Below are positions 1,651-21,327 of a stretch of DNA of 21,765 nucleotides, one piece after another. The position numbers and the translations under genes are program-made. Origin of the DNA: a virus; IMG/VR virus record IMGVR_UViG_3300027911_000074, positions 1 to 21,765 of that record. One strand, written 5' to 3'. Below the pieces are notes generated by a model. It worked only from the letters and a program-made list of their open reading frames with translations, had not been told where the DNA came from and did no database searches. Numbering within the stretch: the first letter of the stretch is position 1; every line of letters starts with the position of its first letter.

Positions 1651-2360
1651 ATTAACTCGACTTTCCATCCTTTGCTAGGACCACTACTAATAGCAGTCCC
1701 ACGTCGTATTGTATTTGCTAAACTGTGGTAATTTAGATCGTTTTCAATGCAAAAATGTCGTAAGGATTTAAGAAAAAATTCTGTGCCATCCGGCGAGAAG
1801 ATCTTATACCACTTAGCTCGTGAACTTAGTTCACCAGTGATTTTTTCAACTCGTTTTGCGATTGTTTCTACGGTCTGTTTGCGCCCCAATGAAGCTTTAC
1901 GCATTTTTTCTAACGTTATTGGAGATTTCTTCTTTCCGGTGCTCCAGTGGGCTTCACCAGAAATATGATTATGATTTTCTCTCATCTTTCGGCGGGTTTC
2001 TTCTGAATGACGCTTTCCGTACATTGGATGAATTCGTCCTGTTTTGTTAAGATGCCGACAGCACTTACCACCTTCTGTCATGTTGTACCCAGAATCAAAT
2101 CCAAACGTATTTAATTTGAGTATCCATTCAACTTCTTTGTTGTTCAATTCCTCTAACGATGAAGCTTGGTCCACTTGCTCTACGACAAATGCCTGTCGTC
2201 CGTATTTGCGGATTGCTTGACATAACAAATATGGTGGTTTGTCTTTCCTATTTGCATAGGCGACATGAGCATTCCATCTTTTTCGTAACACCCATGTCGT
2301 TTGCCCTACGTATTGTTTGCCATTTTCTTTATTTGTAATTGTATATACGATTCCATACAT
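1647..2360 (-). CDS. free-standing GIY-YIG homing endonuclease
   Basis: 237 aa. The N-terminal GIY-YIG nuclease domain shows GIVY (3-6) and YVGQT (17-21), with Arg27 and Glu76 near the positions used for catalysis in I-TevI, and GYN (91-93). It is followed by two NUMOD3-like DNA-binding repeats (about 111-127, HPMYGKRHSEETRRKM, and 138-160). The C-terminal segment (186-237, SPDG...F...SL) resembles the DNA-binding end of intron and Seg endonucleases. It nicks or cuts DNA to spread its own gene. Both flanking genes are intact and unrelated, so it is free-standing (Seg-like) rather than intron-borne. No SD before the ATG. Its last codons overlap the next gene's start as ATGA. Confidence 0.93.
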   Translation of the reverse strand: MYGIVYTITNKENGKQYVGQTTWVLRKRWNAHVAYANRKDKPPYLLCQAIRKYGRQAFVVEQVDQASSLEELNNKEVEWILKLNTFGFDSGYNMTEGGKCCRHLNKTGRIHPMYGKRHSEETRRKMRENHNHISGEAHWSTGKKKSPITLEKMRKASLGRKQTVETIAKRVEKITGELSSRAKWYKIFSPDGTEFFLKSLRHFCIENDLNYHSLANTIRRGTAISSGPSKGWKVELI

Positions 2361-2366
2361 GGATCA

Positions 2367-2389
2367 TATTTACACCAAATGGCGTTTGG
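2367..2389 (-). promoter_or_regulatory. hairpin plus late-promoter-like box before the endonuclease
   Basis: On the minus strand an inverted repeat (CCAAA, 5-nt loop, TTTGG; 2375-2389) is followed directly by TGTAAATA (2367-2374). That box matches the T4 late box TATAAATA at 7 of 8 positions and ends 6 nt before the endonuclease ATG. T4 homing endonuclease genes are known to be controlled by a 5' hairpin combined with a late promoter. The similarity in layout is suggestive only. The rest of the 56-nt gap holds a run of A on the minus strand. Confidence 0.35.
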
Positions 2390-2416
2390 AGAAATAAGTC
2401 TTTTTTTTTCAACAGG

Positions 2417-2989
2417 TTACAGGTAATGTAGATATGTGGATAAAATGTACTTGTCATTCGACACTGGCGGTTCCCCGGAGTGAGGATAGTTCCAGAGCGA
2501 AGGAAATAGCAGCAGGCGACCTTTCTTTGGCTTGACACGGACATTAGGATGTGGGAAGAACGTCTCACCACCTTGCTCTACATCGTTCAAATACCAGATC
2601 AACGAAAGGAACCTTCGAGCGCTGGCGTGGCTGTTGACATCGACGTGATAAGCGAACCCATCGGTGCCGCCCGGTCGATATTTCTTGATGCGAAAGTGTT
2701 CTAGTCCAAGTTCCTTCGGAAATGTACGGGTCGGAATTTCAGACTGATACTTTCCGATAGCGAGTTCGACAATCTTTGTCATCGCTCCCTGGACATCTTT
2801 GAACGAATCGTCTTTCGAAAGATTCAGTTCAAGGCAGGAGCGGACCATAAGTTGTTGCTCATCTTCGGTCTTTTGGACATCTTCTGCGACAAATTCCGAC
2901 TTGTCGAAACGAGTAATGATCTCGTCGCAGATGTTATTGGGGATTGCGTTTTCGTAGACACGGATAAAATCCGTCAAAAAAGTGGACAT
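2417..2989 (-). CDS. 2-oxoglutarate/Fe(II) dioxygenase, prolyl-4-hydroxylase-like
   Basis: 190 aa with the double-stranded beta-helix motifs of the P4H family. These are the iron ligands H115-V-D117 in YHVDVNS, the GGETFFP turn (140-146), the distal iron ligand H170 (YPHSGEPP), and Lys180 (NDKYILSTYLHY), placed to bind 2-oxoglutarate. The family hydroxylates proline in proteins, and phage members are common but their targets are mostly unknown. It starts 6 nt after the helicase stop. An AAGG lies within the helicase end, so it is probably translated from the replication transcript. Full family length; all metal ligands present, so probably active. Confidence 0.9.
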   Translation of the reverse strand: MSTFLTDFIRVYENAIPNNICDEIITRFDKSEFVAEDVQKTEDEQQLMVRSCLELNLSKDDSFKDVQGAMTKIVELAIGKYQSEIPTRTFPKELGLEHFRIKKYRPGGTDGFAYHVDVNSHASARRFLSLIWYLNDVEQGGETFFPHPNVRVKPKKGRLLLFPSLWNYPHSGEPPVSNDKYILSTYLHYL

Positions 2990-2995
2990 AGTTTT

Positions 2996-4567
2996 TTATA
3001 CCTTCAGTTTCTTTGCGCCTGCGGCTGCTTTGAAAGCGCTTTGTGGTTTGAAGCCATCCGCTTTCAACGGCGTCGTGTTGCGGCGTCGTTCTGCGGCTTC
3101 TTCTGTGCTTTTGAATGGGCGATCTTTTGTCGGTTTGTCGATGTCGAAAACTGGCCCGTCAGCTTCTTCTATTGCTAACGTAGGTGCGGCTTCCCCATCT
3201 CCAATGCTATCGATATCGTCATCTTGCGTGATGTCTTTTTGCGCCGACTCTTCGAGATTGAAAAGTTTCTGTTTGCTGCGATCAATTCCGACCACAAACT
3301 TGTTCATGAACTTTCCGTTTTCCTTGTTCCGCATGTTGACATCACCATGGCGGTTCTTGAGGATCTTGACGAGGAGTTGGTTCATACCTTTCAGTTCATC
3401 GCTGTTGATCAGTGCGAACATGAAATCGGCAGTTACCGGGAGACCAAATGATTCTGACGTGTTAGTCAAATCAGGATCGCTGTTATTGAATCCCGCACGA
3501 TTCATCTGGGTTGCTGACCAGATTGGCACATCAAATTCGACAGCCAATCCACGGAGTTCTTCCGCAATCGACTTGACCAATTCGTACATGCCGCCGCTGC
3601 TGCTGGCTTTCACCCGGCTAGATGCACAGATGTTCAAATAATCAATGAAAATTGCATCCGGTTTGAATTGTTTCTTCAGATTCAATTCATTGAGTAAATG
3701 GCGGAAGTGTCCTACGTGAGCCTGCGCCGTAGGATATTCCTTGATGATCAAAGTACCTTTGGTTCGTTCTTTGATCCGATTGATGTTCTTCTTGAACGAC
3801 TCTTTTGGAACGAAGGCTAGTTCATCTAGCGGGCGGTCCATTAGGTTCGCATCGATACGTTCTGCGATGCGCTCCTGGGCCATTTCCATCGTGATGTAAA
3901 GAACCTTCTTCCCTTGCATCAAGTAGTTGGCAGCAAGGTCGCACATGAACAGAGATTTGCCTACATTAGTTCCGGCGAGACAAATGTTCAACGTCTTGGA
4001 AGGAACACCGTTCTTGGTGATCATGTTCATGTAATCCAAATGGAATGGAATACGTGAATCAATCTTGTGATAAAACTCGTAGCGTTCGTCGGCATCTTCG
4101 AGATAATCGTGACCGACATGCGGGTCAAATGAGACCCCTAGAGCGTCTTGTAAAAGCTTGGGGATGATTCCCTTGTCCACCTTGGTGTTGGTGCCGTCTA
4201 GGATGGTTATGACCTCAAGAACGGCATTGTGAATGGCCCGCTCCTGACACCATTCCTCGGTTTTCTGGACCAACCATTCGATGTTGGGTTGTTCTGGTGT
4301 AACTTCCAGGGTGTTGAGGTATTCTCCGATTTCATCCAGGTCATCTTGGGCGACCCCGTGAGTACCTTCTAAGTCAATGAGTAATGATTCTTTGGTGGGT
4401 AAGGTGTTGAACTTGTCAATGAAGTCCTTGACTTTCAGAAAGATATTGCGTTCTGTCTTCGAACCTCTTCCATCAAAATATTCAGCGTTGATAAACGGCA
4501 GCACACGTCGCATGAACTGCTCATCTTGCATCAGACCTCTAAGTATAATTGATTCAATTCTATCCAT
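2996..4567 (-). CDS. replicative DNA helicase, DnaB/gp41-like
   Basis: 523 aa. The N-terminal half matches the primase-interacting region of DnaB-type helicases. The C-terminal RecA-like motor has Walker A AGTNVGKS (about 198-205), a following YITMEM strand, Walker B DAIFIDY (about 304-310) and a Q/R-rich sensor region (SATQMNRAG). It unwinds the fork as a 5'-3' hexamer on the lagging strand. The tail (about 430-523) is charged and low-complexity with DDDID and KADGFKPQSAFKAAAGAKK, perhaps a partner-binding tail. Start: ATG at 4567 has an excellent AGGA SD 7 nt upstream. An upstream TTG at 4591 would extend it eight residues but has no SD. T4 gp41 is 475 aa, so this one is somewhat longer. 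Confidence 0.95.
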   Translation of the reverse strand: MDRIESIILRGLMQDEQFMRRVLPFINAEYFDGRGSKTERNIFLKVKDFIDKFNTLPTKESLLIDLEGTHGVAQDDLDEIGEYLNTLEVTPEQPNIEWLVQKTEEWCQERAIHNAVLEVITILDGTNTKVDKGIIPKLLQDALGVSFDPHVGHDYLEDADERYEFYHKIDSRIPFHLDYMNMITKNGVPSKTLNICLAGTNVGKSLFMCDLAANYLMQGKKVLYITMEMAQERIAERIDANLMDRPLDELAFVPKESFKKNINRIKERTKGTLIIKEYPTAQAHVGHFRHLLNELNLKKQFKPDAIFIDYLNICASSRVKASSSGGMYELVKSIAEELRGLAVEFDVPIWSATQMNRAGFNNSDPDLTNTSESFGLPVTADFMFALINSDELKGMNQLLVKILKNRHGDVNMRNKENGKFMNKFVVGIDRSKQKLFNLEESAQKDITQDDDIDSIGDGEAAPTLAIEEADGPVFDIDKPTKDRPFKSTEEAAERRRNTTPLKADGFKPQSAFKAAAGAKKLKV

Positions 4568-5032: not shown

Positions 5033-6291
5033 TATTCTTCTTCGGCTTCGAACTGTTCTTCCATCTGTTCGACGGCACTCTCTACGTTGTCTTCGGAATC
5101 CCAGCCACTAGAATCTTCCTGATCGATTTCAAACACTTCATCGTCAGATTCAATCGGATCGAGAGGAGCTTCCTCGCCCTTTCCGAACAAGAACGCTTTT
5201 GCTACCATTTCTTCGAAAGCGGCTCGATTGACGGGCGTATCAAAGAAGTCCGCAGGCTTGGCTGCGATGTCTTTGCGAGAAGCTTGTTGCCCATCAGGGA
5301 AGGTGTATTCCTTTCCGACCATCTTAATCAGGCCGTACTTCTTTCCCAGGTCGAACAAACCGTAATATTGATCCAGGCCACGATCATGACGCAGGAGAAT
5401 GTCTACCTGCTTTCCGTAGCGAGTGAACCGACTCTTATCCAATGTTGCCGTAAGGATCGAACCCAGGACTTCTTTCTTGTCCTTTTCATCTCGGAACGAT
5501 TTCTTCGAAAGGAAAACGATGGTCGAAGCTGCGTACTTGAGACCACCACCACCGCTCATAGTCTTTGAAGGACCATAGGGATTCATCGAAGCGTAAGTGT
5601 GATTAGTCATTAGCAGAGCTACCTTTGCTTCGCCCAGCTTGATGGTAAGTACACGGAATAAACCACGGATCAAAGGTGTTCGAGTCATGTCCCTGGTGTC
5701 TTCGCCTTTCTTGTTCAGTTTGCCGGATTGTGTATCGTGCAGTTCTTTCAACGTCGAAAGATTTCCTAACGAATCCAGGACCAAGAACATAGGAAGACGT
5801 TGTGCTTCTGGCTTGGCAAGGTAGGCATCAATAAGATGGATGACCTTGTAACGGAAATCCTGAATCGTATTGACTCGTTGTTTGTGAACCCGGCTGGTAT
5901 CGATTCCACGATCTAACATCATCGATTCGGTAATTGCATCTTCGGAATCGAAATAAAAGACGTGACCTTTAGGATTGAGTTTGAGGAAGGTTGCGACCGC
6001 TTGAAGCGCAATGAAGGTCTTTCCAGTAGCTTCTTCGCCTGCCAATGCAGTGATCTTGTTGCCTGCAAATCCGCCGTCTAGCGAACCGGACAACAGGGCA
6101 TTAAGTGCCATCGATCCGGTGCTGAAGAAACTGGTTACCGCAACTTCATCCACCTTAGAAGCAACTGGAATATCGACTCCAGCAGCCTTCATGAGATCAT
6201 CAAAAAATGCACCTTCAGATTTCTTGTTCGTAGTTTTTGCCGCCGCTTTTTTAACGACCGCTTTCTTTGTATCTTCTTTCTTCTTTGGCAC
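5032..6291 (-). CDS. UvsX/RecA-type recombinase
   Basis: 419 aa. The Lys-rich N-terminus (1-25) precedes the RecA core. That core has Walker A GEEATGKT (85-92), a base-like Glu/Asp pair in FDSEDAI (114-120), Walker B FLVLDS (169-174), the L2-type N230-H231 and GGGGLKYAAS (247-256). It ends in a very acidic tail (about 380-419), as in RecA and UvsX, where it tunes DNA binding. The protein coats single-stranded DNA and exchanges strands for recombination-dependent replication and repair. Start is GTG at 6291 with an AGGAG SD 6 nt upstream. A promoter candidate lies about 35 nt upstream. Confidence 0.95.
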   Translation of the reverse strand: MPKKKEDTKKAVVKKAAAKTTNKKSEGAFFDDLMKAAGVDIPVASKVDEVAVTSFFSTGSMALNALLSGSLDGGFAGNKITALAGEEATGKTFIALQAVATFLKLNPKGHVFYFDSEDAITESMMLDRGIDTSRVHKQRVNTIQDFRYKVIHLIDAYLAKPEAQRLPMFLVLDSLGNLSTLKELHDTQSGKLNKKGEDTRDMTRTPLIRGLFRVLTIKLGEAKVALLMTNHTYASMNPYGPSKTMSGGGGLKYAASTIVFLSKKSFRDEKDKKEVLGSILTATLDKSRFTRYGKQVDILLRHDRGLDQYYGLFDLGKKYGLIKMVGKEYTFPDGQQASRKDIAAKPADFFDTPVNRAAFEEMVAKAFLFGKGEEAPLDPIESDDEVFEIDQEDSSGWDSEDNVESAVEQMEEQFEAEEE

Positions 6292-6326
6292 TCCTTTCTC
6301 CTGCCACTACTTCTGGCGCTAAATCT

Positions 6327-6354
6327 ATTACATCACGAATATGGATTTTGTCTA
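6327..6354 (-). promoter_or_regulatory. candidate sigma70 promoter of the recombinase gene
   Basis: TAGACA (-35, 5 of 6), 16-bp spacer, TGTAAT (-10, 5 of 6). The TAG of the -35 box is the stop codon of the upstream zinc-protein gene. The predicted transcript has a leader of about 30 nt with a proper AGGAG SD, unlike the near-leaderless promoters elsewhere in the window. Confidence 0.5.
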
Positions 6355-6639
6355 TAAAAGACCACCATAATAGTCACTCCACATTCCATCCCAATACTCC
6401 ATCCATTCTTCGGTACAATCGGGGCAAAGTAAAGGCTGTGGCTGGTTTCCGCTGGCGTACATAGTACGCACCGGGGCCTTCTCTAGCAGTGGATGAAACT
6501 GCTTACAATGTTCACATAATGGATTATCTAGCTCTGTCGAAGCGAACTCTAAAACGGATTTTCTGAAGTGATCCGCAAACAGAGTTTCCATCGGTCCAGG
6601 TCGTTCATCGAGTTCAAACAACTCATCCAGATCATTCAT
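6352..6639 (-). CDS. small zinc-binding protein, 95 aa
   Basis: Two CxxC knuckles, C42-E-H-C45 and C72-P-D-C75, separated by about 26 residues, make a likely single zinc ribbon. The C-terminus is striking for aromatic content (WMEYWDGMWSDYYGG). The N-terminus is acidic (DLDELFELDE). I chose the ATG at 6639, which overlaps the polymerase stop by 8 nt. Earlier in-frame ATGs at 6651, 6657 and beyond lie deeper in the polymerase gene and lack better SDs. Location between polymerase and recombinase suggests a replication accessory factor; function not known. Confidence 0.7.
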   Translation of the reverse strand: MNDLDELFELDERPGPMETLFADHFRKSVLEFASTELDNPLCEHCKQFHPLLEKAPVRTMYASGNQPQPLLCPDCTEEWMEYWDGMWSDYYGGLL

Positions 6640-9370
6640 CTTCTTCGCATTCATGTCCATCATATTCGTCATCTTCAGGATCAAGATCGTCATCCTGTTC
6701 GAGAGTCGGATCAATTAGGGTGACATTATTGTCATCATCGTATTCGAATAGGAATGAGATCGAAGCCCGTGGCTGGGTGTCCCATTTGATTGCATTCAGA
6801 ATGAGCATCAAAGGTTCAATGAAACTCTTCTTCCATTGCATTTCCCAGTCGATATATTCCTCGACACCAAACTCGGTCGGGAGCGTAGTAAGAAAAGCCA
6901 TCGCATTGACGCCGAACGGATTCGGTTCTCGAAGATAGAAGAATTTCATCTTCTCACCATCTTTGATTTTTGGATAGTGGCCGACTACTCCGTGTTGATC
7001 GATAAGTCTGTTATAGGTAAGGACCCCTTTGGTATGGAAAGGTGTTCCTTTGATGTATGTAGTATGCGGATGACCGTACTTTGTTAGGCCGTTGACACTC
7101 CTCGGGAAGCTGACATTTTCAATCGGCTGTTTGCGGAATTCGGCTTCAGTCTCAGAGACGAATTGGAACAAAGTCTGCTGGTCTTTTTCCATGACGATAC
7201 GGACAGCTTTCTCCATGGCGTCCCGACAGAACTTCGGCACAGTCGTCTTTTTAATCTCGACGCCCATGTACTTCAATTCGCCATTTGGCTTACGAATTCC
7301 TTCCTTGTCTCGGACATTGACGATGTAGCGTTTTTTGGCGGTCCAGATTCCCTTGTCACCGATGATTTCCCGGTTCATTGCCAAGTAACCTTTGCCCTCG
7401 GTGTTGGTAGCGGCATTCAAAAATCGCTCACTGACATAAGTGAATAACCGATCCAGTTCCGGCTGAATCATTTCTTTGCAAATCTTATCGACAAAGGCCG
7501 TCTTTTGCATCACGTCGCCTTCAGGATAGTATTTGTCCACTACCGATTTGAGGGTAATGTAAACCGAATCCGTATCCGAATAGACGACGAATTTTTGTCC
7601 TTCGGTTTTGAGCTTCCGATTCAGGAAGTCATTCATTCCCTGGCCGATGTATTGGATGAGGAACTGACCTGTTGTTGTGACCGCTTCTGCGTTTTGTACG
7701 TCGAAAAATCTGAAGTATTGGTTGCCCATAGCGCCGTAAAGTGAATTCAGGAGGATCTTGGTAGCGTGCTGCTTGAGATCGAAAATGGATTTTTCGGTTT
7801 CAAGTTCTGCTTTGCGAACTGGATCGGTACAGGTGTCAAGTTCTTTGACAGCCAGCTTCATGCGTTTCTTGTAAGCGACACGATTGTTGAAGAGTTCTTC
7901 AATCATGACGGAGTACAAGCTCTGAGGAGATTTCTTATAGAAAATAGCGTTCGCTGCGACCGTGACTTCATGCTCCATAAAATGCATGATGAGTTCATCC
8001 GACAAAGCCTGAGTAATGGTCGTGGGATTAACGTTCATCTTGCCTTCATCATCGGCGGTCACCAAATGAGAATTGATGTAAGATTGGTAACGACGCATTT
8101 CCGGCGTCAGTTCTTTCAATGGAATCTTGGTTTCCATTCCCATGTTCAGCGCCCGCATGATGTTTGGATAGAGCGAAACCACGTCGAGGGCGACGATCCA
8201 TTCGTACATGCCGGGAATCGGTTTCATGACAAAGGCACCGATGAATTGGGTGTTCTTGTCAACGTCCGATTTCTGAGGAACCACAATTCCTTTTTCTAAC
8301 AGGGTGTTGCAAATCAATGTATCCCAGGTCCGCACCTGAGACAAGACATCGACGTAATTGACTTTGGCGTGATAGGCAACCAATAACTGAAGCTCAATCA
8401 ACTTGCGTTTGAGATCGATGCGGTCTACCAGACGAACGTCGTGGATGTTGTACTCGACAAATTTTTTGAAGTTCTTTTCGTACAATTCCTGAAGCGTTCC
8501 GTACTCGCCGTAATCAATTTTGGCATCTTTCAATTCAACCTGAGCGATGTAATCCAGGCGATACGATTCACGAGGTTCAAGGACGTTCTTCTTGTAGATG
8601 AGAAGATAGTCGAGGATGCTAATGCCCGCCAATTCGTAGACGATCTCGGGCTTGTTGAAGATGTTGACGGTGCCTTCTTTTACGATGCCCCACGGAGACA
8701 TGCGCTTGACTTGGTTCTCTTCCAAGATGCGAGAGATTCGATTGACCAAGTACGGAATATCGAACATTCGAATATTCCATCCGGTTACAATATCCGGCTC
8801 CAGAGTTTCCCAGAGATCGAGGAACTGACATAGCAAATCAATTTCATCTTCGCATTGATGATATGAGATTTGACTATCGGGATGCTCTTGGTTGTAAGCA
8901 ACCTCATCGAACGGTTTGCAGGCGAAGACATGAAAGATGCCATCGAGCGAACTCTTTACGGTGATGGCTGTGACTTCGTTGGTGGCATCCTTGGCTTCGC
9001 AATAGCCATTCTTTGAATCGACCTCGATGTCGATGTTAGCTATAACTAGTTGGGATGACTTGTATTCGACTACGCCTGGGTAATTCTCATTTAGGTAAGC
9101 GTACTCGTAGCCTGTGTTACCATAAATGCTGAAGTTATCGACTTCACTGTATTTTTTGATGAACTGGTAGCAATCCCCCATCGTACCGGGATTAATTGGC
9201 TCGACAGGTGTCCCATCAGGGGCCTGGAACTTTTGGGATGACTTGTTGGAGGGAATGTAAAGGGTGGGTTTGTACTCGGTCTTGAATCTGCGACGTTTGC
9301 CGTCTTTTACTTCTCTTACATATAGGTAATTTCCACTGCGGAAAATATTCGTGTAATATCGATTACTCAT
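6632..9370 (-). CDS. family B DNA polymerase, T4 gp43-like
   Basis: 912 aa, close to T4 gp43 (898). Proofreading exonuclease: Exo I NIDIEVDS with D114 and E116, Exo II TGWNIRMFD (196-204), Exo III YNIHD (307-311). Polymerase: motif A LDVVSLYP (395-402), motif B KILLNSLYG (538-546), motif C YSDTDS (597-602), then KKRY (about residue 680). All catalytic aspartates are present, so it should be an active proofreading replicase. The C-terminus is very acidic (DDDLDPEDDEYDGHECEEDE). The start ATG has an AGAGG SD. It is the first gene of the minus-strand replication operon, opening from a divergent promoter region shared with the HAD gene. Confidence 0.97.
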   Translation of the reverse strand: MSNRYYTNIFRSGNYLYVREVKDGKRRRFKTEYKPTLYIPSNKSSQKFQAPDGTPVEPINPGTMGDCYQFIKKYSEVDNFSIYGNTGYEYAYLNENYPGVVEYKSSQLVIANIDIEVDSKNGYCEAKDATNEVTAITVKSSLDGIFHVFACKPFDEVAYNQEHPDSQISYHQCEDEIDLLCQFLDLWETLEPDIVTGWNIRMFDIPYLVNRISRILEENQVKRMSPWGIVKEGTVNIFNKPEIVYELAGISILDYLLIYKKNVLEPRESYRLDYIAQVELKDAKIDYGEYGTLQELYEKNFKKFVEYNIHDVRLVDRIDLKRKLIELQLLVAYHAKVNYVDVLSQVRTWDTLICNTLLEKGIVVPQKSDVDKNTQFIGAFVMKPIPGMYEWIVALDVVSLYPNIMRALNMGMETKIPLKELTPEMRRYQSYINSHLVTADDEGKMNVNPTTITQALSDELIMHFMEHEVTVAANAIFYKKSPQSLYSVMIEELFNNRVAYKKRMKLAVKELDTCTDPVRKAELETEKSIFDLKQHATKILLNSLYGAMGNQYFRFFDVQNAEAVTTTGQFLIQYIGQGMNDFLNRKLKTEGQKFVVYSDTDSVYITLKSVVDKYYPEGDVMQKTAFVDKICKEMIQPELDRLFTYVSERFLNAATNTEGKGYLAMNREIIGDKGIWTAKKRYIVNVRDKEGIRKPNGELKYMGVEIKKTTVPKFCRDAMEKAVRIVMEKDQQTLFQFVSETEAEFRKQPIENVSFPRSVNGLTKYGHPHTTYIKGTPFHTKGVLTYNRLIDQHGVVGHYPKIKDGEKMKFFYLREPNPFGVNAMAFLTTLPTEFGVEEYIDWEMQWKKSFIEPLMLILNAIKWDTQPRASISFLFEYDDDNNVTLIDPTLEQDDDLDPEDDEYDGHECEEDE

Positions 9371-13069: not shown

Positions 13070-13145
13070 TGGTAGCCCTACGAGGACTCGAACCTCGATT
13101 CTAGGTTTAGAAGACCTATGCCTTATCCTGTTAGACGATAGGGCC
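13070..13145 (-). tRNA. tRNA-Arg (anticodon UCU)
   Basis: A complete 76-nt cloverleaf. The 7-bp acceptor stem (GGCCCTA with TAGGGCT) has a G-U wobble at its first pair. The D stem is GTCT/AGGC with a GG-containing loop, and the anticodon stem is TAGGT/ACCTA with loop CTTCTAA and anticodon TCT. The T arm is CGAGG-TTCGAGT-CCTCG. The 3' ACCA is encoded in the DNA. It would decode AGA arginine codons. It sits between a small hypothetical gene and NAD kinase and is probably processed from their common transcript. Confidence 0.93.
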
Positions 13146-14941: not shown

Positions 14942-15316
14942 TTATGCTGCATTCACCAAAGTCTTAGCCGGGAGTAGAATAGAAGCAACTTCATAGCAGC
15001 GAGAATTTACAGGCATGAAACGAGAATTGCGTCTCGCCTGGAGCCGATGTAATTGATCGTCATCGTAAGCGGTAATGACAACAATTTGATTGGCGGGTCC
15101 ATGCCAGCGACAGACAATAGCGCCTCCGTGAACTAGCAAAAGAAGCATCTTCTTTTCTTGAAGAGTATCTTCGACCGTAAGCAGGCGAACGAAAGATCCT
15201 ACCGAAGGAAATTCAAAGTCAGCCGGGAGCCGGGTTTTCATGCGTTCGACAAAGTGATCCGTAAAAATGAACGACACGGTTTGAGGTTTTTTATGGTTGT
15301 TGAGTTGTGGTGTCAT
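14942..15316 (-). CDS. hypothetical protein, RelE/DUF4258-like pattern possible, 124 aa
   Basis: The segment FTDHFVERMKTRLP (18-31) and the later GGAIVCRWHGPANQIVVITAY (about 64-84) recall the His...ER...R start and the closing strand of small RelE-like or DUF4258 toxins, which are RNases. The match is loose and no partner antitoxin is visible. Its start overlaps the ligase gene end by 26 nt, with a GGA about 8 nt upstream. Confidence 0.6.
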   Translation of the reverse strand: MTPQLNNHKKPQTVSFIFTDHFVERMKTRLPADFEFPSVGSFVRLLTVEDTLQEKKMLLLLVHGGAIVCRWHGPANQIVVITAYDDDQLHRLQARRNSRFMPVNSRCYEVASILLPAKTLVNAA

Positions 15317-15839
15317 TGCGTAATCCGTTTTTTACAACTGTACGCATTTTCCAGTTGTGAGTAGTTTGCACATGTCCCTTACGGACCCATTTTGCAATGC
15401 TCTTACGAAACGCTCCATAAGGGAATGCGTCAGCGATTCGTACTACGTAGCCTTCTTGTCTGTTAGTATCAATTTTGTTTCCAAGTTCACGAACCAATTC
15501 TTCGTCCCAAATTCCTCGGTAGATCAAAGGGACCGTAGATAAACCCAGGACGCCTGCGTACTCGACTGTATCATCCCAGCTAAGACAAATGTTGTTCTCA
15601 TCCCAGATCGAAAATACCATGAAATAAGATGGCAATTCATCATAGATGATGGAATGTCGTGCGTAAAGATTCTCGCCGCAAATTCTCCAGCCGACTGGGA
15701 TGTTCCAGCAAATGTCGGCATGAAGTTTCTTGACCCAACCTCGGGATTCGTGGTGCTCCTCTTCGAGGCTGCGGGCGTGCATGTAGTCTGGATAGAGAGT
15801 CGTATTTTCTCCATCCATCTTTTTTGTAATGACGACCAT
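15291..15839 (-). CDS. RNA ligase, Rnl2/DNA ligase-like, with uncertain N-terminus
   Basis: From ATG 15839 (SD AAGG 4 nt upstream) the protein has 182 aa. It shows nucleotidyltransferase motif I K7-M-D-G, motif III ICGEN (53-57), IIIa FSIWD, motif IV EGYVV (129-133) and motif V KSIAKWVRK (146-154). It would seal RNA ends, for example tRNAs cut by host defence. Reading upstream in the same frame, the translation continues V-K-Y-P-R-T-Y-H-L-P-W-S-P-G and D-D-D-R-R-L, which I recognise as the usual N-terminus of this ligase family. That extension reaches about 15932, but there the expected start is GTC and no ATG, GTG or TTG occurs before the TAA at 15957. The start is therefore unresolved, and the short form may lack part of the fold. 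Confidence 0.8.
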   Translation of the reverse strand: MVVITKKMDGENTTLYPDYMHARSLEEEHHESRGWVKKLHADICWNIPVGWRICGENLYARHSIIYDELPSYFMVFSIWDENNICLSWDDTVEYAGVLGLSTVPLIYRGIWDEELVRELGNKIDTNRQEGYVVRIADAFPYGAFRKSIAKWVRKGHVQTTHNWKMRTVVKNGLRNDTTTQQP

Positions 15840-17082: not shown

Positions 17083-17101
17083 GTAGACGTATCTAGGCCG
17101 T
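17076..17101 (-). repeat. 26-bp direct repeat, copy 2 (NAMPT end and promoter -35)
   Basis: Identical to 14411-14436. Here it covers the Thr-Ala-TAG end of the NAMPT gene and the TTGACA box of the following promoter. The flanks beyond the 26 bases differ. Confidence 0.85.
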
Positions 17102-18643
17102 TTTCATCCATTCGTCGGCACGTTCACGAATCTCTTCGAACGTGTCGGTATGGAGCATTTCACCGTTTCGTAGGATCGGGCGAAGCAGGTTACCTTCACG
17201 GTTTTCCTCACCCGGTTTCAACTGCTCCCAGGTAATCTTGGATTCACCAGTAACCGGATTCTGCTTGCGCAGGACAGCGAACCGACCACGCTTCGAATAC
17301 TTGCCGGGATCGGTAATCGGGTCCTTGTAGACAAGGCGTTCGTTGCCGTATTTGTCTTCGAGAGCCGACAGCTTTACGGCCATGTTCAATTCATCACGAG
17401 TGTGACCCTGTAACAGCGCTCCACCTTGACCGAAGGTAGCGATGTTATCAATCGACCAGCCCGCACCTTTCAATGCACGACCCATATCGTAGATCGCATC
17501 ATAGGTGTTTTTCTCACCCTGCAAAGCTTTGATCTTGCCCCTGTGTTCCGGCAGGCCCAGCATCTTGTAGCCCTTCGAATTCAGGTGGGTTCCGAACTTC
17601 TCACCAAGCAGCCAGAGGAATTTGAGCATGGTAGGAATCGGTTCACCGGAATCAGGACGACCGACAGTCAAACCATTACGATTGATGATGGTTTCACGAA
17701 AACGAGTACCCAGGATGTCCGATGCGAATTCCCATAGATTCTTCGAATCAGCGACGATGGAAATGATTCCAGTCGGGCATTTTTCAAAAACGCCTTCGAC
17801 TACATCGGCTTCGTATTCCAAACCTTTATGAGTCATGACGGAGTGCTCGGTTGCGCAGACTCCATTACACGGTAAGTAAGTCGGTTCACCGTGTTGGTCG
17901 AACTTTCCGTCGCCGTAAAATTCGTTGATGTAAGCGATGGACGGAATGTTGTCCGAAGACGAGAAGTGAACTAAGTGAGCCGCACCACCAGCCTCAGCAG
18001 ACTCGAAAGAAGACACGCCACGCAATCCGAAGTCGCAAAGCATGTATCGGATGGCTTCCGGCGTACCAGTCTCTTGTAGAGCCTGATAGAGCACTTTCTT
18101 GATGTGCTGGGAGTAAGTACCGACTGTCGTCGGTGCCCAGACGTGAAACATCGTCGGTTCAAGGAATCCCGGCAGCATCGAAACTTTGTGACCGAAGTTT
18201 TTGATGATTTTGCGCTGGCCGTTGATGATGTGATCCATGACCTTGTGAGTATTGAAGTAGGTCACAATCGGAGTGCGAACCGGAACGTTCAGACCTTCAG
18301 GCAAGGCCCAGACTTCGAGAGGCAGAATGCCATCCAATTCTCGTGCAATGAACATCCAGGCGTCATAATCATAGACGCCATCAAAGCCAAAAAACTCTTT
18401 GTAAAATCTGCGATCACTTTCGACCTGTTTGACTGTGATACGAGGTCCGGTGAATTCCTTCCAACACAAAGCCTGTGCTCCGAAAGGTGTGATGTCACCA
18501 AACTCTCCACCACGGCTTTCCATGTAATCGTACATCCACTTGATGCCGGGTTCATAGAATAAGTGATGGCTGATCTTGTAAGCGTCAGTGCGCCTCGTAA
18601 TACTTCGTTCGCTTGACCCTCTCGGGATGATAATGTTACTCAT
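17093..18643 (-). CDS. nadV: nicotinamide phosphoribosyltransferase (NAMPT)
   Basis: 516 aa, slightly longer than human NAMPT (491). Family signatures are TDAYKISHHLFY (19-30), DFGLRGVSS (204-212), the catalytic His in ATEHSVM (H267), VADSKNLW (298-304, D299), GRPDSGEP (328-335) that binds the phosphoribosyl group, GQGGALLQ (405-412), and KDPITDPGKYSKRGR near the end. It makes NMN from nicotinamide and PRPP, the first step of salvage from nicotinamide, which is the product left when TIR-type defence enzymes destroy NAD+. An AAGGAAA SD precedes the ATG. It overlaps the upstream small gene by 8 nt. It acts with the NMNAT-type proteins upstream. Confidence 0.96.
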   Translation of the reverse strand: MSNIIIPRGSSERSITRRTDAYKISHHLFYEPGIKWMYDYMESRGGEFGDITPFGAQALCWKEFTGPRITVKQVESDRRFYKEFFGFDGVYDYDAWMFIARELDGILPLEVWALPEGLNVPVRTPIVTYFNTHKVMDHIINGQRKIIKNFGHKVSMLPGFLEPTMFHVWAPTTVGTYSQHIKKVLYQALQETGTPEAIRYMLCDFGLRGVSSFESAEAGGAAHLVHFSSSDNIPSIAYINEFYGDGKFDQHGEPTYLPCNGVCATEHSVMTHKGLEYEADVVEGVFEKCPTGIISIVADSKNLWEFASDILGTRFRETIINRNGLTVGRPDSGEPIPTMLKFLWLLGEKFGTHLNSKGYKMLGLPEHRGKIKALQGEKNTYDAIYDMGRALKGAGWSIDNIATFGQGGALLQGHTRDELNMAVKLSALEDKYGNERLVYKDPITDPGKYSKRGRFAVLRKQNPVTGESKITWEQLKPGEENREGNLLRPILRNGEMLHTDTFEEIRERADEWMKTA

Positions 18644-18821
18644 TGTTGGTTTCCTTTTCTTTATCTCTTATAGATTGAATTGCTCGAAGCAACGATTCTT
18701 TTGCCGCTTTTTTTGTCGTACCCGTACCCCATTCATCGTAAACCTTTGAAGAGGCAAGATAGCAACCATTTCGTGGTAAGTAGGTGTACTTTGCTCTAAC
18801 TTTTAGTTCGTCGTTCTGCAT
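18636..18821 (-). CDS. hypothetical protein, 61 aa
   Basis: MQNDELKVRAKYTYLPRNGC leads into SKVYDEWGTGTTKKAAKESLLRAI. The strand-strand-G-x-G-T-x-x-x-A...L helix outline resembles small dsRBD-like or HicB-like folds, but I do not assign it. Start overlaps the upstream frame by 26 nt and its end overlaps NAMPT, so it sits within the NAD operon. Confidence 0.6.
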   Translation of the reverse strand: MQNDELKVRAKYTYLPRNGCYLASSKVYDEWGTGTTKKAAKESLLRAIQSIRDKEKETNNE

Positions 18822-18927
18822 GTCGTCTTCTTACCATCGCTTTCTTTACTGCTTTCATGTTAGCACGAGCGACCTTGAGATCGCAATGATACATCTTCAA
18901 ATAATCTTCAAGATGAAGATGCGGCAT
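18796..18927 (-). CDS. small basic hypothetical protein, 43 aa
   Basis: MPHLHLEDYLKMYHCDLKVA continuing to a very basic end (KKAMVRRRHAERRTKS). The frame is open up to 19047 but that part lies within the CinA/NMNAT gene. I choose the ATG at 18927, which overlaps that gene's end by 20 nt. An ATG at 18894 is an alternative. It may bind nucleic acid because of its charge. Reality as a gene is less certain than its neighbours. Confidence 0.45.
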   Translation of the reverse strand: MPHLHLEDYLKMYHCDLKVARANMKAVKKAMVRRRHAERRTKS

Positions 18928-20161
18928 CCTGCTGATGGCGGATTGCTGTAGACGAGACAGCCGACGTTCGCAGTGGATGAGTAATTGCCACAGAAAGCTG
19001 TTTAAACGATTCTGGAAATTCGTCCAGGCCGCTTTGAAAGACTCCATCTTTTTCCCTCCCGAAGATGATGAACTGCGTTCGCCTTTCGTTGAAGGTTTCC
19101 ATTACCGGATCTATCGGACCATACTTCTCATCAACAATCCGTTTCGCCGTATCGTAACCAACGACAAAGGTAGCGCCATAAAACAAATTTGCCTTTTCGA
19201 GAAACGTCGGCGCATTGGTAAGCCAGACTACCTGCTTTCCTCTGAAAGCTTTGATCCGATTCTCGATAGTAATGAAATCCAGGAGCGGCTTATCAACGTT
19301 CCGAATGCTTAGTTCAAATTCAGTTTTACCGGACCAATGTAGGGTCGATGCGTAATCGGCCATTTCGTAATGACCATCGTGGACCGGATTGAAACTGCCA
19401 GGGAGAATCAAACCAGAATGAACAGCATCTCTCCAGCCGCACCAATCTCGCCCGTTAACACTATCGACCAATACACCATTCACAACAACGATTCCAATGC
19501 GTTGGACGGAGCCATCGATCAATCCCGGCAGAAGAGAAGTTGCTTTGTGTAAAGTGGACTCAGTACGGATCGTATAAGCTTCCAATCCGGTTTCAACTCG
19601 TTCTTTGAGTCCGCAGGCTTCAGCTACCAAATTCAGCATCAGAAGTGATGTGGCATACTCTTCATTTTCACGAATAGTTTCCGCAGTCAATGCGGAGCAT
19701 CGAATGGGATTTGTCGGATCGAGCACCAATGAGAGCGAGACCGTTTTATTACCAGTCTGCAAAGCTGCATAGATGTAGTGGATGCGGCCAGCCCGTTCTT
19801 CTGGTGTCTTCTGCAAGGACACAGAACAAGCTACGCCGAAGAACGGAGGAGGCGCAGATTTGAAATATCGTCCATCATCAAATTTCGGTTCGCCTTTGAT
19901 GGCTTGGATGTAAGCAGCCATCGCTAATTGCCTCGTAGTTTGCTCACTAACGTACTTCTCAGGCTTGCCACCAAGAAGTTCATCGGTTCTGGTCTCTTTG
20001 TACGGAATTTGACCATCGAGCAGCGTAGCGGACCCGCCACCACGTCGGAGCAGCATCGGATAAATGTCGGTGCCACCACCAGTAGCAAAGATGACTCCCC
20101 GCTGCGGAGTAGCGTGAATGCGTTTGACCAATTCTTTGGTTGTGATTGATTCAGGAAACAT
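18908..20161 (-). CDS. CinA-C-like / nucleotidyltransferase (NMNAT-type) fusion
   Basis: 417 aa, two domains. Residues about 1-190 follow the CinA C-terminal (PncC) fold outline: ATGGGTDIYPMLLRRGGGSA (26-45), PYKETRTDELLG, VSEQTTRQLAMAA, and FFGVACSV. Residues about 248-410 are a nucleotidyltransferase with LPGSFNPVHDGH (253-264, the HxGH nucleotide-binding motif) and SSTAIR (403-408), both typical of NMN/NaMN adenylyltransferases. It could convert NMN to NAD+. In my rough alignment the PncC domain lacks the catalytic Ser and Lys of NMN deamidases (Phe25 and Thr59 there), so it may only bind nucleotide. Plant proteins with a similar domain pairing exist as far as I recall. It sits directly upstream of the NAMPT cluster. 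Confidence 0.85.
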   Translation of the reverse strand: MFPESITTKELVKRIHATPQRGVIFATGGGTDIYPMLLRRGGGSATLLDGQIPYKETRTDELLGGKPEKYVSEQTTRQLAMAAYIQAIKGEPKFDDGRYFKSAPPPFFGVACSVSLQKTPEERAGRIHYIYAALQTGNKTVSLSLVLDPTNPIRCSALTAETIRENEEYATSLLMLNLVAEACGLKERVETGLEAYTIRTESTLHKATSLLPGLIDGSVQRIGIVVVNGVLVDSVNGRDWCGWRDAVHSGLILPGSFNPVHDGHYEMADYASTLHWSGKTEFELSIRNVDKPLLDFITIENRIKAFRGKQVVWLTNAPTFLEKANLFYGATFVVGYDTAKRIVDEKYGPIDPVMETFNERRTQFIIFGREKDGVFQSGLDEFPESFKQLSVAITHPLRTSAVSSTAIRHQQDAASSS

Positions 20162-20372
20162 AATTTTTCACTCGTGTTATTGGTTGTAAAACGTTGGGGT
20201 TTGCTGGCTCGGGACTGTTTTCGAAACCATGCGAATTAAGCATACAATTCCAACAGCGACCGCTAATGTTATCTTGTGGTACACCTTCGGGACCATAATA
20301 ATCATTCGCAGGCGTACACATGTACTTCTTTTTGCAGTTGACACAGACTACCGGAAGATCGAGATCAAGCAT
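20151..20372 (-). CDS. small zinc-ribbon protein, 73 aa
   Basis: Two CxxC knuckles, C10-V-N-C13 and C40-W-N-C43, with an extra C19. A predicted zinc ribbon with a Pro/Asn-rich tail. It overlaps the NMNAT-Nudix gene end by 8 nt and the CinA fusion start by 11 nt, so it is embedded in the NAD operon. Function unknown; it may be a regulator or partner. Confidence 0.75.
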   Translation of the reverse strand: MLDLDLPVVCVNCKKKYMCTPANDYYGPEGVPQDNISGRCWNCMLNSHGFENSPEPANPNVLQPITRVKNYVS

Positions 20373-21327
20373 TGGAATATCCTTTGAATTTCAAAAGTTC
20401 ATGCAGCAAGTTGACGTGTTCGCCTTCCATATCTGCGTCCAAAATTGCTTCCAGATCCCACCACTGAATCATTCCGCCGTTTGCAAGATCGTCGCCCGCT
20501 TCAAGCTGATCGTCAGTACCCAGGAAATTGATTTCGAAAAAGGTAGTGATGATGCCATCCGGGTTGTCTCGGTAACGCCAGTCGTTGACGTTCATGCTGC
20601 AAATGTATAAAGGTTTCGTAAAAACTTCGTTGGGATTAACCCCTTTACGCAAAAGTTCCTCTCCACCTTCCCTGAGTACTGCGAACTCCAAAGAAACGTC
20701 ACCACGGTCCTTAAAACCACCAGCAAACCGCCATCCTCGCTCACCGGGCTTCTTCGCCAGGAGGTATTGGAGTTTTCCACGAAAAACACGGCTTACGGCG
20801 ATATCGACGGTCGGATAGTTGATCGGAAATTGTTTGTTCAGTCCGTAGATCACACCCCTACGAAAAAGTTCCATCGAATCGCATTCATCTGTTATCGGCC
20901 AGTACGGATTTTTGATGACGAAATTGCGGGATGTAACTTCGTGATAGAGAAAATTTGTTCTGGCAGTCAACCAATACAAAGGCGGCTGCGTCCGATCAGA
21001 GAAAAAATGAATGGCTTGAGGATTGTATTCGATGTAATGATCGGATAGCGTTTTGATTACAGCCTGTTCTAAGGTGTTAGTCTGATCCCAAAGATATTTC
21101 TTTTGGGTGACAGGCACGATAAGAACTTTTCCGATGAATCTATCTTCGATCATTTCCATTCGCATCGTAAAATCCAATGGAGCATTTTTACTGAACGGAA
21201 CACGATTTACTGGGAGAGTGATGATTGTGATGTTGTGATCTTTTAGAATGTCCCGAATCGTTTCCTCGTGATACCCTCGAAGGGAAGGCGTCTGAAACGG
21301 AGCGTAAATGACTGCAATGTTATTCAT
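20365..21327 (-). CDS. natV: NatV/NadM-like bifunctional NMN adenylyltransferase-Nudix protein
   Basis: 320 aa. Residues 1-110 follow the NMNAT outline: a first strand and loop with VIYAPFQTPSLRGYH (6-20, keeping one His of the usual HxGH), FSKNAPLDFTMRMEMI (45-60), matching the N-P...R...MI region, and VPVTQKK. Residues about 165-310 hold a Nudix domain with a GGF...REGGEE box (203-224) in which the first Glu is Asp210 and one residue is inserted. NatV of phage KVP40 has the same NMNAT-plus-Nudix order and works with NadV. The changed ATP-binding motif means NMNAT activity should not be assumed. It is the first complete gene of the NAD module and has a candidate near-leaderless promoter. Confidence 0.82.
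   Translation of the reverse strand: MNNIAVIYAPFQTPSLRGYHEETIRDILKDHNITIITLPVNRVPFSKNAPLDFTMRMEMIEDRFIGKVLIVPVTQKKYLWDQTNTLEQAVIKTLSDHYIEYNPQAIHFFSDRTQPPLYWLTARTNFLYHEVTSRNFVIKNPYWPITDECDSMELFRRGVIYGLNKQFPINYPTVDIAVSRVFRGKLQYLLAKKPGERGWRFAGGFKDRGDVSLEFAVLREGGEELLRKGVNPNEVFTKPLYICSMNVNDWRYRDNPDGIITTFFEINFLGTDDQLEAGDDLANGGMIQWWDLEAILDADMEGEHVNLLHELLKFKGYSNA

Follow-up and report, generated by a model that had tools for sequence, protein, structure and literature searches.

NARP2 of Osterman et al. (2024) is reportedly, going by the papers that cite it, the phage pair of NadV and NatV/NadM. Such a salvage pair, leading from nicotinamide to NAD+, has been described from phages (PMC9503650, section 3.6), including Vibrio phage KVP40 (PMC7139368), and NAD+ reconstitution by phages acts against NADase defence (PMC12043709). 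In this study, an operon of the same pathway was investigated in the window, by which we mean the whole 21.8-kb stretch of the IMG/VR virus record IMGVR_UViG_3300027911_000074. It encodes a nicotinamide phosphoribosyltransferase (NAMPT, NadV), a NadM/NatV-type protein joining a nicotinamide mononucleotide adenylyltransferase (NMNAT) domain to a Nudix domain, and a fusion of a CinA/PncC-like domain with a NadD/NMNAT-type adenylyltransferase. Like the described pair of KVP40 and NARP2, it has a member of the NMNAT-Nudix family encoded close to NAMPT and follows the same pathway; it differs in the ruined NMNAT site of the NatV-type protein, in the HxGH adenylyltransferase of the fusion and in the NAD kinase gene that comes after. 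We consider, with a probability of roughly 0.7, that the operon is a nicotinamide-to-NAD+ salvage module with a swapped adenylyltransferase, and not a module with two NMNATs as a preliminary description of this DNA had proposed.

NAMPT beside an NMNAT-Nudix gene corresponds to the standard NadV/NatV salvage pair known from phages: relatives of the window protein of 320 amino acids (aa) directly adjoin NAMPT in Tunturiibacter phage Tunturi_5 and in huge phages, and a search with the family profile found NAMPT adjacent in 74 of 80 viral loci. To that extent the preliminary description, which saw NAD+ rebuilt from nicotinamide by NAMPT plus NMNAT, was right, the module being of the NadV/NatV (NARP2-like) kind. 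The NatV/NadM ancestry and two-domain layout of the 320-aa protein are evident from its model, which aligns over its full length with the F. tularensis NMNAT/ADP-ribose pyrophosphatase (2qjt/2r5w; Z about 15, 288-293 residues), and Pfam reports NUDIX at 1.8e-05. Unlike that bifunctional NadM, however, it has lost the NMNAT motifs. Where its relatives carry (G/A)RFQ...LHxxH, YGSRDSF and S(G/A)TxxR, it reads APFQTPSLRGYH, FFSDRTQ and KNPYWP, all three adenylyltransferase motifs being destroyed; the Nudix box is intact (GGFKD..REGGEE, glutamates kept). The confidence of the model (predicted local distance difference test, pLDDT, 88) drops to about 49-71 at residues 100-150, the expected place of two of the lost motifs.

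The fusion of 417 aa, by contrast, has both adenylyltransferase motifs in intact form (SFNPVHDGH and VSSTAIR), and HxGH and SSTxxR are retained in nearly all full-length phage fusions and in cellular members. Its model (pLDDT 88, predicted template modelling score 0.90) matches CinA/PncC chains with residues 1-187 (Z 14-16) and NadD/NMNAT chains with residues 246-417 (Z 10-13); the PncC fold is seen against 2a9s (Z 15.9, 151 residues, root mean square deviation 3.0) and 4ct8 (Z 15.0, 141 residues, deviation 2.4). Pfam detected CTP_transf_like (5.4e-05) and not the CinA relationship in the window sequence, although 32 of 40 relatives match PF02464 (best 3.2e-07). A profile search of the PDB recovered both NadD/NMNAT and CinA chains for the fusion, and phmmer with the single sequences of this protein and of the NMNAT-Nudix protein yielded nothing but noise there. 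Judged by motifs and modelled fold, the fusion is predicted to be a working NMN adenylyltransferase, NMN being nicotinamide mononucleotide, and because the motifs are lost in the NatV-like copy, it is most likely the sole adenylyltransferase of the operon. The comparison of structures and active sites proposed in the preliminary description has thus favoured one of its two NMNAT-type proteins and not the other, and its idea that both work was not supported, the NatV-like copy lacking three motifs that 69 fusion-free relatives keep fully or almost fully. With the fusion as the NMNAT, genes and motifs would fit the NARP2 combination of NAMPT with a working NMNAT.

The fusion gene or its NMNAT half was observed in 65 viral loci, and 22 of 30 fusion records carry NAMPT. 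NadM-type partners were scored at 10 motif positions, with residue sets picked after viewing the alignment. The seven fusion phages with a recognisable NadM-type protein all scored 2-5 (window 2, L128 3, L219 and L249 4, and L221, L250 and G007 5), and all 69 fusion-free copies scored 7-10, of which 66 reached 10. A ruined NMNAT was therefore seen in 7/7 fusion phages versus 0/69 fusion-free ones (Fisher p 5e-10, uncorrected for kinship). The groups separate equally well when exact matches to the copy of Tunturi_5 are counted (2-4 versus 6-10). Since the pattern of the first NMNAT-Nudix scan contains RFQ, ascertainment bias was checked by a Nudix-only scan, blind to the NMNAT motifs, which showed the same split: two fusion copies scored 3 and 4, and the fusion-free copies 7-10. 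In the 30 records with an intact NMNAT-Nudix protein no fusion was found, just three short HIGH-motif matches. The syntenic relative L128 has NMNAT-Nudix, fusion and NAMPT in the same order as the window (identities of 42%, 49% and 54%), the latter two genes sharing 4 nucleotides (nt), and in G007 the ruined copy neighbours NAMPT, with the fusion about 100 kb away. Other fusion phages gave matches to the Nudix domain only, or none. The presence of the fusion thus predicts which protein to assay, a simple rule that can be checked across phages. As side observations, ORF (open reading frame) translations read by eye show two inserts between the NMNAT-Nudix and fusion genes of L128, an HNH-type endonuclease and a secreted protein whose tail is PEP-CTERM-like. 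In L249, the NadM-type gene is divided and the fusion match is limited to the CinA-like part (196-aa ORF), which could be sequencing error or decay.

Several observations weigh against the swap or against a strong version of it. NAMPT was not seen in 8 of the 30 fusion records, some of which are fragments. One fusion record, G069, has beside NAMPT a very divergent NatV-like NMNAT-Nudix protein that keeps a PFHNAH-type motif and has apparently lost the final arginine motif; it is a possible exception to the rule. The Shine-Dalgarno sequence of the fusion gene is weak. The fusion may prefer either NMN or nicotinic acid mononucleotide (NaMN), the nearest solved folds being those of NadD enzymes as well as NMNATs. 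Trees of the Nudix half require 4-5 changes, of which starred branches force only 2, and a tree with all ruined copies in one clade is not rejected by the approximately unbiased test (p 0.60). For these reasons we do not claim that the NMNAT site was lost independently and repeatedly; the association is firm as a pattern and, given this test and the few forced changes, may reflect a single event, namely one old, inherited replacement.

The preliminary description also named a NAMPT with all catalytic motifs, and this was confirmed over the full length: PHROG 448 'nicotinamide phosphoribosyl transferase' matches at E=2.5e-106, Pfam NAMPT_N and NAPRTase agree, and solved NAMPT structures align at E=6e-74. 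The residues of the site for nicotinamide and phosphoribosyl pyrophosphate (PRPP) are conserved, the aligned segments TDxYK, DFGxRG, the amide-reading Asp, EHS, RPDSG, GGxLLQ and KDPxxDPxKxSK all being kept. Use of PRPP is what tells a NAMPT (NadV) from the Namat of NARP1, which uses ADP-ribose pyrophosphate (selectivity clamp in PMC12774641); no Adps/PRPP-synthetase-like protein was found among the ORFs scanned of this contig, which is a fragment. With homologues in 1,897 phage records, NAMPT alone is ordinary.

Going beyond what was observed, namely which genes are present, the state of their motifs, their folds and recurrence, and the link of the fusion with a ruined NMNAT, we infer substrates, ligand binding, a Nudix target, an NADP+ step and a counter-defence role as follows. 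NAMPT would make NMN from nicotinamide and PRPP, and the HxGH-type domain of the fusion would make NAD+ from NMN and ATP. The older NadM/NatV-type protein, its adenylyltransferase site lost, would persist for its Nudix hydrolase activity, with ADP-ribose or related dinucleotides as the probable substrates, and the dead NMNAT scaffold attached to the Nudix domain may have kept its ability to bind nucleotide. The CinA-like domain would grip the NMN phosphate through Tyr54, Arg164 and Ser44 and, without the catalytic lysine, would not deamidate. NAD kinase would convert part of the NAD+ to NADP+, and the likely benefit is that NAD(P)+ is kept up in infection, including under host NADase action. 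An NMNAT-Nudix gene beside NAMPT, moreover, need not make NAD+, which corrects a natural misreading. A more far-reaching version, which we regard as tentative and rather doubtful, is that the fusion replaced the NatV adenylyltransferase anciently or repeatedly, that the non-deamidating CinA domain senses or holds NMN, and that NatV became a dedicated Nudix hydrolase with its dead NMNAT as a nucleotide sensor; together with NAD kinase, the phage would then control the whole route from nicotinamide through NMN and NAD+ to NADP+.

The CinA-like domain allows another use of the fusion, in which it would convert NMN to NaMN, the second domain would form nicotinic acid adenine dinucleotide, and host NadE would amidate this to NAD+. 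The folds agree with this two-step route, the N-terminal domain matching PncC deamidases (Z 15-16) and the C-terminal domain NadD enzymes. In A. tumefaciens CinA, however, activity is undetectable after S31A or K63A, and the phosphate is held by Tyr58, Ser48 and Arg145 (PMC5384747). By profile alignment with that protein, Ser31 corresponds to Thr27 and Lys63 to Thr59 in the fusion, and the family consensus has no lysine there; Thr27 could stand in for the nucleophilic serine, but the catalytic lysine has no such substitute in the window protein or the consensus. The fusion thus shares with the PncC/CinA NMN deamidases the fold and the phosphate-binding Tyr and Arg, and not the catalytic pair: Tyr58, Ser48 and Arg145 correspond to Tyr54, Ser44 and Arg164, of which Tyr54 and Arg164 are invariant in the family (Arg164 was matched to Arg145 by conservation and position, not by the printed alignment). 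Phage NAMPT, furthermore, already supplies the amidated NMN. With the lysine missing, NMN deamidation by this domain is judged unlikely from the residues, and so is the two-step route as a whole; most likely the domain binds NMN or a similar ligand in a regulatory or substrate-holding manner.

The fate of the NatV-type protein can be read in other ways too. That both NMNAT-type proteins are active, for example on different pyridine substrates with the NatV-like copy working through altered residues, would suit an NMNAT half that folds confidently to about residue 95 and keeps one HxxH histidine, but the RFQ arginine, the GSRD loop and the SxTxxR arginine are gone, all three kept by the 69 fusion-free relatives, and six other fusion phages show the same motif loss; we hold this to be very improbable. 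Only slightly better is the chance that the gene has lost every role and is decaying as a pseudogene. Erosion of its NMNAT half and the break of the L249 gene into frames of 51 and 246 aa speak for this, yet the window reading frame is open, the Nudix glutamates are kept in every fusion phage checked, and a partner with only a Nudix domain is retained in other phages that carry the fusion. A stronger contender, although we think it somewhat less probable than its opposite, is that the module serves mainly metabolism, raising NAD(P)+ so that a large lytic phage can synthesise its DNA, and not counter-defence. A NAD kinase gene is nearby, replication genes are also in the window, and NAMPT is widespread among large phages. 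Published work on NAD+ reconstitution by phages, on the other hand, shows it to counter NADase defence (PMC12043709), and the window encodes an Acb1 domain against CBASS (cyclic oligonucleotide-based antiphage signalling system); a metabolic role is still compatible with both. By analogy with the pathway and its phage literature (PMC9503650, PMC12043709), and with the Acb1 gene in mind, a role of the swapped module against NAD-depleting defence is plausible.

The preliminary description had called the fusion an addition to the two-gene form, and the extra gene is there; it is by no means confined to this phage. A pattern scan of bacterial genomes revealed the same two-domain protein in Planctomycetota, Chloroflexota, Pseudomonadota, Deinococcota and others, and 52 full-length cellular members align at 28-37% identity, from which the fusion appears as a cellular architecture and not a phage invention. 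That it is unique to the window phage was rejected, as it is common in bacteria and recurs in phages, often next to NAMPT. Phage and cellular members share the architecture, the invariant residues and the missing deamidase lysine; they differ in that the phage fusions fall in clades mostly apart from the cellular ones, which suggests an old acquisition. Searches of plasmids, and single-sequence searches of viral contigs, returned only a sibling contig, and alignments were needed to find relatives beyond it. No homologues of NAMPT, NMNAT-Nudix or NAD kinase lie beside the fusion in the cellular loci fetched. The literature searched yielded no description of the fusion in phages and no characterisation of the cellular fusions. 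The data point to a widespread, uncharacterised bacterial CinA-like/NMNAT family that phages apparently use for NAD+ synthesis; in the more far-reaching version given above, the fusion would be an uncharacterised NMN adenylyltransferase branch shared with many bacteria. Separately, a 5.3-kb contig labelled as a Planctomycetota metagenome-assembled genome (L016) carries a fusion within a phage clade and is probably a phage contig binned with that genome.

All genes named in the preliminary description are present on the minus strand where it had placed them, and its overlapping operon, with NAMPT 3' of the fusion and the NMNAT-Nudix protein, is confirmed (Table 1). In 5' to 3' order the genes are NMNAT-Nudix, the 73-aa ORF, the fusion, the 83-aa ORF, the 61-aa ORF and NAMPT, each overlapping the next. 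The sibling contig repeats the DNA of the region at 99.99% identity over 10.9 kb, so the operon is not an assembly artefact. Shine-Dalgarno-like (SD-like) sequences precede NAMPT and several other genes of the operon. The small embedded proteins do overlap their neighbours as described; their membership in the module was not upheld. Neither the 73-aa nor the 61-aa ORF has a significant family match in Pfam or PHROG, the coding status of the 83-aa ORF is uncertain, and since all three lack a counterpart in L128, the nearest relative, they stand outside the conserved module and are best seen as local inserts.

Table 1. Positions of the operon genes and neighbouring features in the window, and of features in related records.
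Record	Feature	Position	Strand	Remarks
Window	NadM/NatV-type NMNAT-Nudix protein, 320 aa	20365..21327	-	Ruined NMNAT site, Nudix box intact; 8 nt overlap with 73-aa ORF
Window	73-aa ORF, zinc-ribbon-like CxxC/CxxC pattern	20151..20372	-	Overlaps both neighbours (8 and 11 nt); SD-like AAAGGATAT upstream
Window	CinA/PncC-like domain (about 1-190) and NadD/NMNAT-type adenylyltransferase (about 246-417), 417 aa	18908..20161	-	Pfam, model, motifs
Window	83-aa basic ORF	18796..19047	-	Other frame, 140 nt over fusion 3' end; 26 nt overlap with 61-aa ORF; strong SD-like GGGAGGG
Window	61-aa ORF, function unassigned	18636..18821	-	8 nt overlap with NAMPT
Window	NAMPT/NadV, 516 aa	17093..18643	-	PHROG, Pfam, structure alignment
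Window	RNA ligase	15291-15839	-	PF09414, 6e-31
Window	tRNA-Arg(tct)	13070-13145	-	Directly upstream of NAD kinase gene
Window	NAD kinase, 265 aa	12250..13047	-	GGDGS and TPTGSTAYNLSANGP motifs; 4 kb downstream of NAMPT
Window	Second, separate Nudix hydrolase, 146 aa	10698-11138	-	Pfam 2.4e-09
Window	Acb1 anti-CBASS domain protein, 300 aa	291-1193	-	PF23474, 4.6e-19, residues 14-154
L128	HNH-type endonuclease	6615-7334	-	By eye
L128	Secreted protein, PEP-CTERM-like tail	5986-6726	+	By eye
L249	Split NadM-type gene	5995-8008
G069:C1 (L388, L368)	Divergent NatV-like NMNAT-Nudix protein	145580-146605		By NAMPT
L016	Fusion	1992-3269	+	Within phage clade

The NAD kinase gene lies outside the range given in the preliminary description. 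Its product has the GGDGx motif and the C-terminal domain, with matches to Pfam NAD_kinase_C (2.7e-23) and NAD_kinase (3.5e-13), PHROG 13155 (3.3e-39) and NCBIfam NAD(+) kinase (4.9e-50). Of 20 fusion records tested, two from related phages (G001 and G007) have a NAD kinase, and the other 18 showed none; it lies about 4.7 kb downstream of NAMPT in the phage of L128 and elsewhere in G007. Concerning the wider neighbourhood, PADLOC gave no defence-system match. The C-terminal half of the Acb1 protein shows, by eye, an LDGHHR motif like those of ParB/sulfiredoxin domains, and the protein may be an Acb1 fusion. The NAD kinase gene starts with TTG after AAAAGGATATGC, and the RNA ligase encoded between it and NAMPT possibly serves tRNA repair.

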